From: a virus
DNA length: 20,141 bases
Direction: 5' to 3' (one strand)
IMG/VR virus record: IMGVR_UViG_3300044713_000048
Location: 1-20,141 of that record
Numbering within the stretch: the stretch's first letter is position 1; each line of letters starts with the position of its first letter. The notes beneath the pieces are model-generated. The model saw only the letters and a list, made by a program, of their open reading frames with translations, had not been told where the DNA came from and made no database searches. Below, in pieces: positions 864-9,466 of this stretch. A program made the translations under genes and the position numbers.

Positions 864-1178
864 TTATGGATAGTGCAAGGCCAGATGGTGTTTACGGCAG
901 AGCCATCTAACGTCGAGGGGCTTGGCGTAGTCGGGGTGATGCATCTCACTCTCACCCTCATCGCAGATTTCGCAAGGGTAGCGTTCGATGAGGCCGTATC
1001 TGAGATATTGGCCAGCGTAGCTGCGACAATTATCCTTGTGCCGCGCCTCGGCGCTTAATGGATGAGTCTTGCGCCACGCGCGCTGGTAGGCGTTATGACA
1101 CTCGCGACAATATTGCTGCCCAAGCGCGCGCCGTTCGTTCAGCCCACACTTAATACAGAGTTTCATTGGTAGCCACAT
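864..1178 (-). CDS. HNH-type zinc-finger protein, possible nuclease
   Basis: A 104-residue protein with two metal-binding units. The N-terminal unit is a Cys4 knuckle, C8-x2-C11 and C24-x2-C27. The C-terminal unit has C69-x2-C72, the pair H80-H81 and C94-x2-H97-H98, in the order CEIC / MHHPDY / LCRKHH. This is the usual layout of small phage HNH-like proteins, where the HH plus the final His carry catalysis and the Cys residues hold structural zinc. Whether it cuts DNA or only binds it cannot be read from the sequence. The Met at residue 5 (1166) is an equally possible start; neither has a good Shine-Dalgarno sequence. It lies between the membrane ORF and the PEP-CTERM gene, downstream of a hairpin, and may be expressed separately. 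Such genes are often mobile in phages. Confidence 0.8.
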   Translation of the reverse strand: MWLPMKLCIKCGLNERRALGQQYCRECHNAYQRAWRKTHPLSAEARHKDNCRSYAGQYLRYGLIERYPCEICDEGESEMHHPDYAKPLDVRWLCRKHHLALHYP

Positions 1179-1184
1179 GAAACA

Positions 1185-1213
1185 GGGAGGACGGGTGCGG
1201 CTCCCGTCCTCCC
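1185..1213 (-). terminator. hairpin downstream of the PEP-CTERM gene
   Basis: A perfect 11-bp inverted repeat (GGGAGGACGGG at 1185-1195, CCCGTCCTCCC at 1203-1213) with a 7-nt loop lies 41 nt after the stop codon of the PEP-CTERM gene. On the minus strand it is followed by TGTTTC, a weak T tract. The position and the strong GC stem suggest a leftward transcription terminator, though an imperfect one. Confidence 0.6.
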
Positions 1214-1254
1214 CTCAAACCGTCGCCGCAATCAGCCACGGGGGGTCTAGGCTT

Positions 1255-1905
1255 TCAAACGACAGCGATCCGGCCGGTCCGCGAACGGGAGCCCGCGAAC
1301 GCGAGCAGGCCGAAGCCTAGTCCGATCATCACCCAGGTGGAAGTTTCGGGAACCCCGGTAACCAGCTGCGCCGAGCCGCCGAACGACTGTCGCGCCGCGG
1401 TGAAGTCGACGGCGAACTGGATCTCGTCAGAACTGAACGGGCTCGCTCCTGCCGAGACGGGCCCGAAGGCGCCGTCGAGCAGGCCGACCGGGAAGGTGTG
1501 CGTGGCAAGCAAGCCGCCGTCCGCGAAGGTCGACTCGGTGGTCGGGCCAGGATCGTTGGTCAGCCCATTGACTGTGAAGGTCGAGAGCGTGTTGCCGGTC
1601 CCGGTGATGGCGCTTTGCAGGACATCGACAGTCAAGGTGTGCGCGCCCGTAAAGCCAGCCGAGGCGGTAGCGTCGAGCGTGACGCTCGAGAGATCAGCCT
1701 TCGGCAGGATCGGCGAGCCTTGCGCGGCGACCGTGATATTGGCGAAATTGGCGTCGTTGGCGGTGAGTGAGGCTGCGCCGGTGGTGACCCCGCTAATGTC
1801 GTCGATCAATGTGCCGTTGTCGAAGATCTCGATTTGCAGCGTCGCGCGCGCGGGCGTGACGCCGATCGCCGCAAGCAACGCGGCCGACAGGATAAGCTTG
1901 TTCAT
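1255..1905 (-). CDS. secreted PEP-CTERM domain protein
   Basis: A 216-residue exported protein. Residues 1-21 form a signal peptide: MNK, then a hydrophobic core ILSAALLAAIGV, ending in A-R-A. The middle is a Thr/Ser/Ala-rich region with few charges and beta-strand character. The C-terminus (185-216) has the full PEP-CTERM order: V-P-E-T-S-T-W, a hydrophobic helix (VMIGLGFGLLAFAG), then Arg-rich SRSRTGR. In bacteria this signal is recognised by exosortase (EpsH/XrtA family), which cleaves near the PEP motif and releases the protein to the outer surface. No exosortase is visible here, so a host enzyme would be needed. The start is fixed by an AGGAGGG ribosome-binding site at 1912-1918. Hairpins lie on both sides. 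The second P of the motif is Thr here, a tolerated variation. The role in the phage is unknown. Confidence 0.88.
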   Translation of the reverse strand: MNKLILSAALLAAIGVTPARATLQIEIFDNGTLIDDISGVTTGAASLTANDANFANITVAAQGSPILPKADLSSVTLDATASAGFTGAHTLTVDVLQSAITGTGNTLSTFTVNGLTNDPGPTTESTFADGGLLATHTFPVGLLDGAFGPVSAGASPFSSDEIQFAVDFTAARQSFGGSAQLVTGVPETSTWVMIGLGFGLLAFAGSRSRTGRIAVV

Positions 1906-1918
1906 GTGTCACCCTCCT

Positions 1919-1947
1919 AAAAACGAGCGCCGGCATTATGCCGGCGC
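1919..1947 (-). terminator. hairpin plus T-tract in the leader of the PEP-CTERM gene
   Basis: GCGCCGGCA (1927-1935) and TGCCGGCGC (1939-1947) make a perfect 9-bp stem with a 3-nt loop. On the minus strand it is followed by TCGTTTTT and then directly by the AGGAGGG ribosome-binding site of the PEP-CTERM gene. This is a good intrinsic terminator for the long leftward operon. Only 21 nt separate the stem from the ATG, so no promoter fits between them: the PEP-CTERM gene must be reached by read-through or from a promoter upstream of the stem. Confidence 0.65.
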
Positions 1948-1985
1948 CCTCTGCTCGCTGTCTACAGCCCCAGCGCGGGTTTAGC

Positions 1986-2657
1986 TCACTTCGGCTGCGG
2001 GCGCGCCGGGGGCGTGCGGCCCGGCAGCTGACCGGCAGTCGGCGGACGTCCGCCGCCGGGCAAGCCCTGATCGGGTCGAGCGGGAGGCCGCTGTCCAGGC
2101 AAGCCCTGTCCCGGCCGCGGCGGAACGCCAGGGCGCGGGGGTTGCGGGCTCGGCAAGCCTTGGTCCGGATGCTCTTCGCCAACGCCGTAATCCGGATCGA
2201 CCGGATGTTCCGGTACGTCGACCACGAAGTAGTGCATCTTCTTGTGGCCAGTGCTGCTGACCACTGCGGCCAGAACCAGCGCCTTGCCTTCAGGAACGCC
2301 AGGGAGATCCAACGGCGGCCACACTGTGCCCGGGGGCGGATCGACCGGCGGCAGCGGCTGACCGGCGACCGGCGGCAACCCGACGTCGGGGTGCTCGGGA
2401 TCGAGCGGCCAGACCGGCAGCTGGCCCGCATCCTCGCCGCCGCCTTCTTCGATCCCATAACCAGGATCAGTCGGGCGGCCGGGCCGAGCCGGAAGATGCC
2501 CGGGATGCCCGGGCGCGCCGGGGAAGCCGGGAAGGCCATGCGAGGGGTGTTCGCCGCCGCCCCAGCCGGGACGCCCTGAGCCAGGGAGTCCTTGGTCAGG
2601 ATGCCCGCCGCTCGGTTGATCGAAAAATTGGATGTACGCCCATGAACCCTGTGCCAT
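1986..2657 (-). CDS. Pro/Gly-rich repeat protein
   Basis: A 223-residue low-complexity protein, very rich in Pro and Gly. Imperfect repeats of the type HPDQGLPG-x-GRP, RPGQGLPGQRPP and RPDQGLPGGGRP occur at both ends (about 18-60 and 155-220). A short ordinary segment sits in the middle (about 112-150: GTVWPPLDLPGVPEGK, then VLAAVVSS and MHYFVVDV), which looks like a small beta structure. AGGAGA lies 5 nt before the ATG. It is the last gene of the leftward operon, just before a terminator-like hairpin and 9 nt after the SNF2 helicase gene. Similar Pro-rich proteins with a central VWPPL...GK segment occur in phages of alphaproteobacteria, as far as I recall, without known function. Collagen-like or linker-like behaviour is possible. 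Confidence 0.8.
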   Translation of the reverse strand: MAQGSWAYIQFFDQPSGGHPDQGLPGSGRPGWGGGEHPSHGLPGFPGAPGHPGHLPARPGRPTDPGYGIEEGGGEDAGQLPVWPLDPEHPDVGLPPVAGQPLPPVDPPPGTVWPPLDLPGVPEGKALVLAAVVSSTGHKKMHYFVVDVPEHPVDPDYGVGEEHPDQGLPSPQPPRPGVPPRPGQGLPGQRPPARPDQGLPGGGRPPTAGQLPGRTPPARPQPK

Positions 2658-2666
2658 GCGTTTCTC

Positions 2667-4073
2667 CTATACTGGTTCGGCAACCTTGAGGTTTTTGAAT
2701 ACGGATCTGTAAAGAGCATCCTTGCGTTGCAGGGCTTTGACAATCCGCCGATCCAGAGGCGAGCCAGAGAGGTCGATGTACAGCACCCGTTCGCCGGTCT
2801 GGCCGCGCCGGTGGATGCGGTCTTCTATCTGGTCCCTGGTGTCGGCGCTGTAGCTATTTTCAAAAAAGATCATCGTTCGGCACAGATCATCCGGTCCCGG
2901 GCCGCCGAGCAGGGTATGGCCGTACTTGCTGGCCTCAGCCTGGAGGAGGATGATCCGGCAATGGGGATCGGTGTTGAAGCGCCGCTTCTGGTCCTCGACG
3001 TCGGCGGGCTTCATCCCCCCTTTGATCCAGGCGCAGTCGTGGGACACCAGCGCCCTGATCAAGAGGTCGAGGACCGGCCGATGACGGTAGACGATGCAGA
3101 CCTTGCCCTCGACCTCCTCGTCGAGCAGCTGCTGCAGAAGCTTGAGCCGGGGGTTCTCAGCCGGGCGCACCAGCTCATGAACGTCACCGGACTGGTCGTA
3201 TATGAAGCCAGTCTGGATTTGGGCGAGCTTCTCGTACTTAGCGATCGCCACATCGACCGTGACGTAGCCCTGTTCGATGGCGAGCAGGAAGTCATGCTCC
3301 ATCGAGGCATACTGGCGCAGCTGCTCGGTCGACATCTGATAGTCGCGGATAGTGAAATCCTTGCGTGGCAATGAGGGAAGCCAGTCCTTCTTCTTCGCCT
3401 GGAACACCACAGGCTTCATGATCAAGGCCAATTGCTCGGTGTTCTTGGCGTCGACCACCGCCTTCATCTGCCAGCCGCCCATCACGCAAAACGCGCCGCG
3501 GAAGGCATAGAAGTTCCGGCCCTCAAACAGGCCGATCGCCCTCAGCTGCCCCCATAGATCCTGCGGTCCTTGGGTCTGCGGCCGGCCGGTCAGGCAGCGC
3601 ACCCAGGTGCAGACCGGCGTCAGCCGATGGACCGCCTTGGTTTGCTCGCTTCTGTTGCCTTTGATCTGGATGCTTTCGTCGATCACCAGATAGGTTCGGC
3701 CGCGCTCGGCCCACATGGTCATCGCCTTGAGGACGTTGGGCATGCGCAGGGCTTCGTAGTTCAGGATGAACACCGGCGCCCGGTTGCGGCCCTTGAGATT
3801 GATGAACTCGGCGGCCTTCTTCTTTTTCGACGATTGGAACACATGGGCGTCGAATTGAAACCCGTGCTTTTCGATCTCGTCGATCCAGCCTTCCTTGAAG
3901 GTATTGGGACAGATCACGATCATCCGGTCGGCCTCGCCGGTCAGCGTGTAGCCTTCGAACTCAGCGAGCGCGCACAGGGTCTTGCCCAGCCCCTGTTCAA
4001 GGAACCACCCGACGCCCGGCTTGTTGCGAGCGAAGTCGAGGGCGGCGATCTGGACCGGGTCGAGCTGGCTCAT
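2667..4073 (-). CDS. SNF2-family (superfamily 2) DNA helicase/translocase
   Basis: A 468-residue ATP-driven DNA translocase. Motif I (Walker A) is EQGLGKT at about 26-32. Motif Ia lies near VICPNTFKEGW (53-63). Motif II is VIDES at 130-134, a DESI variant of the usual DEAH/DESH. Motif III is LTGRPQTQGPQDLW, close to the SNF2 LTGTP-x-N pattern. The C-terminal RecA domain holds VCIVYRHRPVLDLL, the strand IILLQAEA, and motif VI near residue 420, QIEDRIHRRGQT, with the arginine finger. The length fits compact phage SNF2 proteins, which lack the accessory domains of chromatin remodellers. Phage members are thought to act in replication, recombination or displacement of bound proteins. The ATG overlaps the preceding stop as ATGA. 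It probably works with the VRR-NUC-like nuclease encoded in the same operon. Confidence 0.92.
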   Translation of the reverse strand: MSQLDPVQIAALDFARNKPGVGWFLEQGLGKTLCALAEFEGYTLTGEADRMIVICPNTFKEGWIDEIEKHGFQFDAHVFQSSKKKKAAEFINLKGRNRAPVFILNYEALRMPNVLKAMTMWAERGRTYLVIDESIQIKGNRSEQTKAVHRLTPVCTWVRCLTGRPQTQGPQDLWGQLRAIGLFEGRNFYAFRGAFCVMGGWQMKAVVDAKNTEQLALIMKPVVFQAKKKDWLPSLPRKDFTIRDYQMSTEQLRQYASMEHDFLLAIEQGYVTVDVAIAKYEKLAQIQTGFIYDQSGDVHELVRPAENPRLKLLQQLLDEEVEGKVCIVYRHRPVLDLLIRALVSHDCAWIKGGMKPADVEDQKRRFNTDPHCRIILLQAEASKYGHTLLGGPGPDDLCRTMIFFENSYSADTRDQIEDRIHRRGQTGERVLYIDLSGSPLDRRIVKALQRKDALYRSVFKNLKVAEPV

Positions 4074-8043: not shown

Positions 8044-8976
8044 CTAAAACGGAATGTCGTCCTGGTCCTCTTTGGGCGTGTACATGGGCCGCGGCTCTGG
8101 ATTGCGATCGGCGCGGATCGTCTCAGCCTCGCCCTCGAAGTCGGTGACAAACCCGCTCTTGGCGTACTGATCGTAGAGCGCCCGCGCCTCGATCCCTTCC
8201 TGCTCGGTCTGCAGATTGCCGAGATATTGGTAATCGTAGGTGTAGTAGAAGTCGCCGGTCGGCCCGGTCTTGCGCTGGCTGACGATCTTATACCGCTGAT
8301 AGAATTGATCGACCCCCATCGCCCGCGCGGTCGAGATGAAGTTCTGGGTTGGTGCGATGCCGGTGCGGGCGTTGGTGAACACGCAAAGCTGCTTCTTGCC
8401 GTTCGGCAAGTCGATCAGCCACAAGACGTCATAGGTCAGGGTCGCCGCCGGCTTCGAACTCGGATTGTCGTCCTGGCTCGAGCCGAACTTGTGCATCTTG
8501 TTTTCGAAAACGGTGGTTCGAATATGCCACTTGTAGACTTTCGGATTGCCGGGGAAGCGGACCTCGAAGGTCTGGTTGGGGTGGTCCCAATGCATGCCGT
8601 CCGAGGCGGTCGCCAGCGGACCTTTCTGCTCACCGGGGCCGCCGACGCCTTTCGGCGCCCATAGCTGGTAGCTCTTGCGCAGGAAGATCGGCGTGCCGGT
8701 GACCGAGGGGCCGAAGTCCTTGTTCAGGATCGTCATCCAAAAATTGCCGACGCTGGCGCCCGGGGTGCGGTCCATGATTTCGGGGCTTTGCCCGGCCAGG
8801 ATCTTCAGCCGCGGCGGCTTGAGGTCGGACCCGTCAATGTTGCCCATCGACGCGCCGGTCGAGGCCTTGCGCATCCAGTCAGGGACCAATGCGCTCTCTG
8901 TTTTTACGATGTCGTTGCTCACGATGTACATTTCCTTTGAACTGTTCCAGCGATAACGGGGCTTTTCATAGTTCAT
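8044..8976 (-). CDS. probable phage single-stranded DNA-binding protein
   Basis: A 310-residue protein. The strongest clue is its last eight residues, EDQDDIPF, which closely match the acidic SSB C-terminal tail (bacterial SSB ends DDDIPF) used to recruit replication and repair partners. The N-terminal region has the pattern LVPDWMRK ... KPPRLKILAGQSPEIMD seen in a widespread group of phage proteins near replication genes. The middle is rich in aromatic and basic residues (YKWHIRTTVFENKMHKF, FYYTYDYQYLG), suiting an OB-fold-like nucleic-acid binder, though I cannot prove the fold. The ATG at 8976 sits 1 nt after the preceding stop. A GTG at 8922 with AAAGGA upstream is an alternative start that removes 18 residues. 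Confidence 0.72.
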   Translation of the reverse strand: MNYEKPRYRWNSSKEMYIVSNDIVKTESALVPDWMRKASTGASMGNIDGSDLKPPRLKILAGQSPEIMDRTPGASVGNFWMTILNKDFGPSVTGTPIFLRKSYQLWAPKGVGGPGEQKGPLATASDGMHWDHPNQTFEVRFPGNPKVYKWHIRTTVFENKMHKFGSSQDDNPSSKPAATLTYDVLWLIDLPNGKKQLCVFTNARTGIAPTQNFISTARAMGVDQFYQRYKIVSQRKTGPTGDFYYTYDYQYLGNLQTEQEGIEARALYDQYAKSGFVTDFEGEAETIRADRNPEPRPMYTPKEDQDDIPF

Positions 8977-8977
8977 G

Positions 8978-9466
8978 TCACGCCTTGGTGATGCTGGTGT
9001 AAGGCGTGGAGGAAACTTTGAAGATGTCGCTTGGCAATGACCGTTTGGCTAACGCCTCCTCTTTGGCGAATGCGCCGAGCGTCGCGGCATTGACCGTTTC
9101 GATGATCAGGCTTTGATTGTTGGTGTTGTGCAGCCACTGGAAGGCTGCGGCCTTGTCGAGCATCGAGGCTGACCAACGGTCGTTGATCGACACTCGGCCG
9201 ATATCGTCGATCTTGATCGTCTTGACGCCCTGGTTGCCGAACAGGGTCGGCAGGAGCTCCTGCGAGATTGTGTCGACAAGCGACTGAAGAGCCGACATCT
9301 TGGTCGCCAGCGTCTTGACCGTGTCGCGCAGCTCGGAGAAATATACAACGGCGTCGGGAATATTGGCGTTTTCGATCGCCGTGTTGGCGTCGCGCGTGGC
9401 ACGCTCAAGCAGGGCGTCGAGTTTCTGGCCGGCATAGTTGGCCGCGGTTTCGGTATCGAATTGCAT
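8978..9466 (-). CDS. coiled-coil phage protein, first gene of the leftward operon
   Basis: A 162-residue protein. The N-terminal two-thirds are helical with heptad-like spacing (AGQKLDALLERATRDAN, then SELRDTVKTLATKMSALQSLVDTI). After LLPTLF comes a small ordered region: VKTIKIDDIGRVSIND and RWSASMLDKAAAFQWLHN. The end is NAATLGAFAKEEALAKRSLP, then the Thr/Ser-rich STPYTSITKA. Phage genes of this type often stand next to a single-strand-binding protein, as here (1-nt gap), so it may be a replication or recombination partner; I cannot name the family. AGAAGGA precedes the ATG. It is the first leftward gene after the divergent control region. Confidence 0.72.
   Translation of the reverse strand: MQFDTETAANYAGQKLDALLERATRDANTAIENANIPDAVVYFSELRDTVKTLATKMSALQSLVDTISQELLPTLFGNQGVKTIKIDDIGRVSINDRWSASMLDKAAAFQWLHNTNNQSLIIETVNAATLGAFAKEEALAKRSLPSDIFKVSSTPYTSITKA

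Follow-up and report, generated by a model that had tools for sequence, protein, structure and literature searches.

A recurrent family of phage-encoded PEP-CTERM-type proteins with a conserved body and variable ends

PEP-CTERM proteins combine a signal peptide with a C-terminal PEP motif, a helix and a basic cluster, and are coupled to EpsH/exosortase (PMC1569441); the substrates of exosortases are believed to end up at the surface (PMC11980579). Exosortase sorting is part of bacterial exopolysaccharide and floc biology, and the roles of many of its substrates are largely obscure. The virus record IMGVR_UViG_3300044713_000048 raises the question of what such a protein would do in a phage. Within its positions 1 to 20,141 (the whole stretch of 20,141 nt that was analysed, hereafter the window), an original prediction made from the letters alone, with no strand given, described a surface protein with a signal peptide and a complete PEP-CTERM tail, dependent on a host exosortase and unusual in a phage genome. 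The features of this gene, of its product and of its surroundings are collected in table 1; the protein and its relatives are referred to as family F1, and individual loci by L numbers.

Table 1. Features of the PEP-CTERM-type gene (PEP gene), its product and its surroundings in the window
Feature	Position	Strand	Basis or remark
216-aa phage PEP-CTERM-type protein, family F1, whole ORF	1255..1905	minus	ATG start at 1905
Signal peptide, residues 1-21 (MNKLILSAALLAAIGVTPARA), predicted cut before T22	1843..1905	minus	sequence; A21-T22-L23 kept across F1
Body, residues 22-184, beta-rich	1354..1842	minus	family alignment, AF2, pN/pS
C-terminal sorting tail, residues 185-216	1258..1353	minus	PEP-CTERM model matches
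PEP-CTERM signature VPETSTW, residues 185-191, PET variant of PEP	1333..1353	minus	sequence, family alignment
Hydrophobic tail helix, residues 192-206 (VMIGLGFGLLAFAGS)	1288..1332	minus	sequence; AF2 helix 190-215
Basic cluster RSRTGR, residues 207-212	1270..1287	minus	sequence
Shine-Dalgarno AGGAGG of the PEP gene	1913..1918	minus	sequence
11-bp hairpin + TTTTT just upstream of Shine-Dalgarno, within leader	1925..1949	minus	hairpin analysis
12-bp hairpin downstream of PEP gene	1184..1214	minus	z -3.2
HNH/endonuclease VII-like gene, directly downstream of PEP gene	864-1178		profile match
Gly/Pro-rich collagen-like protein (PDQGLPG repeats), cluster c6	1986..2657	minus	ORF list, neighbour clustering
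SNF2-type phage DNA helicase (PHROG 62), anchor of window slot	2667..4073	minus	profile matches
Two genes matching Pam3 phage gp34-like and gp33-like families (PF23977, PF23984)	8044-9466		profile matches

The signal peptide of the window protein has n, h and c regions and an AxA-type cut site, and because the protein is free of cysteine it is not a lipobox; a cysteine count across F1 found none except in L054, where it lies inside the tail helix. A simple rule recognized a signal peptide in 52 of 61 F1 sequences. The body is 15% threonine with much alanine, glycine and serine, and lysine, arginine and tyrosine are almost absent, a composition like that of the Thr/Ser/Asn-rich bodies of PEP-CTERM substrates (PMC1569441). 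The full tail reads VPETSTW - VMIGLGFGLLAFAGS - RSRTGR. Motif, helix and basic cluster are all present, yet to call the tail complete is a little generous: the motif (VPETSTWVM) is slightly off consensus, with P-E-T instead of P-E-P and V instead of A after W. VPE-x-STW is found in nearly all members of the family alignment, and both the alignment and the AF2 models place a hydrophobic helix and then a basic cluster at the extreme C-terminus.

Because of these two substitutions the window protein falls below the curated cut-offs of the PEP-CTERM models, scoring 15.4 bits against PF07589 (E 0.02; cut-off 20.7) and 16 bits against NF035944 (PEPxxWA-CTERM; cut-off 35). The family as a whole matches them well: NF035944 is matched by 36 of the 38 aligned members (best E 5.5e-11) and PF07589 by 34 of 38 (best E 1.3e-8), which bears out the prediction of a PEP-CTERM surface-type protein with a signal peptide. 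TIGR02595, the profile that had been proposed for checking it, has no listed match to the window protein alone but matches 30 of the 38, among which L107 exceeds the cut-off (23.1 vs 16 bits), so that a complete lack of PEP-CTERM matches, which would have spoken against the prediction, is not what the three models return. The best whole-protein match in NCBIfam is to the FxDxF family (NF038126), reached by 37 of 38 members at E up to 0.01, yet the 50-bit cut-off is not reached where scores are shown (window, 25.8 bits, E 1e-5; L107, 38.2 bits), and membership in that family was rejected because the scores are below cut-off and the match lies largely in the tail.

PEP-CTERM is a bacterial sorting signal and the window is a linear virus record, and the gene might accordingly have come from bacterial DNA or been joined to phage genes by a chimeric assembly. 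A first scan of viral contigs found 59 loci with F1 relatives at 71–100% identity, and the total rose to 68 loci on 67 viral contigs, three of the loci at 53–57% identity. On many independent viral contigs the gene neighbours are terminase, portal, capsid, helicase, primase or tail-fibre genes. One 45.5-kb carrier (L066/L114) is a circular genome, as seen from an overlap of ~145 nt, with a single indel, between its two ends; here the gene lies close to those for terminase, scaffold and head proteins. A 46-kb sister contig (L002, protein 99% identical) encodes terminase, portal, scaffold, major head protein, tail fibres and ejection protein. No F1 relatives were found in 50,697 cultured phage records, in 72,556 plasmid records or in an 84,980-species bacterial contig collection, the last searched with exact 8-residue patterns that distant relatives could escape; HMM searches of 385 + 43 alphaproteobacterial genomes returned matches to the tail only and none to the body. 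The same gene recurs on more than 60 viral contigs and among several sets of phage genes, one of the contigs being a circular genome, and its body is missing from the searched bacterial genomes. These data refute a bacterial or chimeric origin, to which we give a negligible probability, and neither chance nor contamination can explain the gene. The signal is thus phage-linked as predicted, but it is no one-off: it marks a recurrent, exchangeable class of phage genes.

Clustering of neighbouring ORFs distinguishes at least eight gene neighbourhoods for F1. In the window type, the gene comes after a helicase (PHROG 62 in the window, where primase, endonuclease and Pam3 homologues are also present). 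In the L030 type it lies between portal and major head protein, in the L027 type after tail-fibre genes and in the L045 type beside an exonuclease/ParB-methylase cassette, and in phages of 40% GC (L012, L023) it follows polymerase and helicase. The collagen-like gene of cluster c6 adjoins the PEP gene in several phage backbones (18 loci). Flanking the gene in the window are two hairpins: the upstream one, which with its TTTTT ends ~20 nt ahead of the start codon, could be a terminator, an attenuator or another mRNA element, and the downstream one is a probable terminator. Another phage of the set carries a PurZ-like (2-aminoadenylosuccinate synthetase) gene (L018:13337-14440), which hints at a modified-base genome.

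The GC content of F1-bearing contigs ranges from 0.40 to 0.65, and GC3 of the gene follows contig GC (r 0.89), which indicates long residence in each phage lineage. The tree of F1 bodies, which is largely unresolved, requires 18 label changes where 12 would be the minimum, and its starred branches unite different backbones (L006 with L011/L015, and L027 with L037); both observations point to movement of the gene between phages. The varied position also bears on the idea that the product acts in lysis or envelope disruption, for instance as a unimolecular spanin whose C-terminal helix lies in the inner membrane, as a phage protein with an export signal and a C-terminal membrane helix might suggest. 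We consider this very improbable, given that the gene sits beside helicase, among head genes or after fibre genes, that the lipobox cysteine that would follow a spanin signal peptide is absent in F1 (the cysteine of L054 being in the tail helix) and that the PEP/W signature is kept beyond the need of a plain anchor.

The three parts of the protein have evolved differently. Mean pairwise identity within F1 is 88% for the body, 55% for the signal peptide and 51% for the tail, and the corresponding pN/pS values are 0.18, 0.48 and 0.53; the body is under strong purifying selection, and the signal peptide and tail diverge or are replaced. Between the window and L003 the DNA is 92% identical in the body and 65% identical in the signal peptide and tail, and outside the gene identity is at chance level. 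The ends also exceed the body in synonymous differences (pS 0.57 and 0.54 vs 0.26 in the body, p 7e-4; for L032 vs L040, 0.60 in the tail and 0.20 in the body), which indicates that at least some tails have been replaced and not merely relaxed. That one body is so well conserved across phages agrees with a constant target; under a pure arms race, faster change would be expected.

F1 is not the only such family. The pattern VPEPxTWA[ML] occurs in at least 120 stretches of viral contigs and picked out other PEP-CTERM proteins; some of these contigs may be prophage edges with host genes. Further recurrent body types among the matches listed (L116-L230) are F2 (13 sequences), F3 (8) and F4 (3); L247, a candidate for a distant F1 member, proved to be an F2-type protein and was excluded from the F1 profile, though the second AF2 run was made on an alignment that still included it. 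Some of these bodies occupy slots that hold F1 in other phages. The slot portal/c12-[PEP]-c15/capsid holds F1 (L030, L106, L107, L109 and more), F3 (L202, L223) or F4 (L167, L216, L225). Beside the exonuclease cassette in L226, and behind the helicase in the L022-type phages L144 and L151, F3 takes the place of F1; F2 does so beside the c2 helicase in L149 and, in L138, between primase and c8. In L042 (F1) and L223 (F3) the bodies are unlike, whereas the flanks are 92% (upstream) and 83% (downstream) identical. Comparison of the profiles, which are shallow, did not link F1 with F2, F3 or F4 (probability below 1%), but they may share a fold. No F2 or F3 bodies were found in cultured phages.

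The tail can change as well. The F1 protein of L054 (L054:1339-1995) ends in VVPGPVVGAGLPG, a helix and RRK instead of the PEP tail, and the layout to which this ending belongs, [A]VPGP[IV]xGAGLPG followed by a hydrophobic helix and RRRR, is found with the pattern VPGP[IV]xGAGLPG in at least 120 stretches of viral contigs (L284-L403). Among the matches listed, the pattern lies 27–48 aa from the C-terminus in 130 of 130, with a hydrophobic stretch and then a cluster of Arg after it; a signal-peptide-like start is present in 100 of the 124 longer proteins. There was no NCBIfam match above cut-off and no occurrence in 385 + 5 + 43 alphaproteobacterial genomes. This has the appearance of a sorting tail, so far undescribed, that phages employ, and L054 shows that it can take the place of the PEP tail.

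What all slot cargo has in common is only a signal peptide and a tail, the bodies being different, and this would suit a decoy in which a flood of substrate blocks the exosortase-dependent maturation of host PEP-CTERM or exopolysaccharide proteins, with the tail doing the work. Such a decoy could do without a conserved body, yet in F1 conservation is highest in the body and lowest in the tail, and we regard such a role as improbable. A more far-reaching reading is that phages have a widespread system dedicated to such cargo, in which fixed slots in unrelated phages receive interchangeable secreted bodies with exosortase-type tails (both PEPxxWA and the second tripartite type), and that exosortase hijack would be a general surface-remodelling strategy, a proposal that we put at slightly below an even chance.

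The dependence on a host enzyme that had been predicted is supported, as we detected no phage-encoded exosortase in 25 viral records. Among 385 alphaproteobacterial genomes, 52 encode an exosortase, and all six genomes with PEPxxWA tails fall among those 52 (p ~5e-6 with, and 3e-5 without, the genome used as centre), the tail search having scored 21 candidates per genome, which limits its recall. This co-occurrence, together with the lack of a phage exosortase, makes it quite likely that a host exosortase processes the F1 product. The nearest cultured phages are mostly Ochrobactrum or Rhizobium phages, distant and at low identity, and comparison of the capsid and polymerase of other backbones with cultured phages indicated no host; the hosts are probably exosortase-bearing Alphaproteobacteria. 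No tyrosine integrase was found in 40 records and no prophage copy of F1 in the bacterial contig collection (exact 8-residue patterns), suggesting a lytic life. An effect during lytic infection is therefore likelier than lysogenic conversion, which is disfavoured on the same two grounds.

For the F1 family, AF2 yields a weak model (pLDDT 68, pTM 0.58), a beta-sandwich with a helix at either terminus, and the body alone was modelled no better (pLDDT 60). Foldseek TM-scores of the models are ~0.2–0.4, VIA gave Z scores of at most 9.6, at low identity, to jelly-roll, carbohydrate-binding and adhesin domains, and no sequence relative of the body was found in the PDB. As the models are weak and the fold matches generic, we retain only "beta sandwich"; the matches would be compatible with a binding domain. 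They also relate to a possible role in matrix or adhesion, in which the protein would join the exopolysaccharide and alter aggregation or the retention or release of virions in biofilm or soil. In bacteria, PEP-CTERM proteins have been linked to exopolysaccharide and flocs (PMC1569441; PMC9850573), and the weak model shows a resemblance, with Z scores of 8 to 9.6, to domains of the carbohydrate-binding and adhesin kinds; against this, the model is poor, Z near 8 is common for beta sandwiches and a short lytic infection leaves little time for matrix building. We consider this role rather unlikely, at clearly better odds than a decoy.

In its signal peptide, its body without other homology and its tripartite tail, F1 is like the substrates of PEP-CTERM/exosortase (EpsH, XrtA) systems of the PEPxxWA-CTERM subtype. 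Unlike bacterial substrates, it is phage-encoded, with no exosortase found in the phage records, and one body is shared across unrelated phages, with PET in the window copy. Superinfection-exclusion and receptor-masking proteins are small phage-made envelope proteins that are dispensable for virion building. F1 may be likened to them as a small, predicted envelope protein of phage origin; we know of, and found, no such protein with an exosortase signal.

Our best explanation, which we consider probable, is that apparently lytic phages carry the F1 gene as moron-like cargo and that its product would be exported by Sec, with its signal peptide cut after A21. The C-terminal helix would anchor the product in the inner membrane so that the PET/PEP motif is placed on the periplasmic side, where the host exosortase would cut at the motif and pass the body to the outer surface or the exopolysaccharide. 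There the body, as a ligand-binding or shielding beta domain, would alter the surface of the infected cell. The off-consensus, sub-cut-off motif of the window protein counts against this explanation, as does the conservation of the body where an arms race would bring faster change, and neither sequence matches nor reliable fold matches point to a ligand of the body. The surface change would most likely shut out competing phages, by receptor masking or superinfection exclusion; we prefer this role because the gene is optional and mobile, cargo is swapped at fixed sites and the body is free of cysteine. Even so, exclusion of competitors is favoured only tentatively, at distinctly less than an even chance, and other surface roles take the remainder.

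In openly accessible papers we found no report of phage PEP-CTERM families. The class of mechanism is known; the phage setting and the exchange of cargo appear to be new. If the proposed explanation is true, a phage-specific family and a tail type have been overlooked by current annotation, phages would use a host sorting pathway to alter the cell surface during infection, and these genes would offer a handle on the function of PEP-CTERM bodies and on phage-phage competition.
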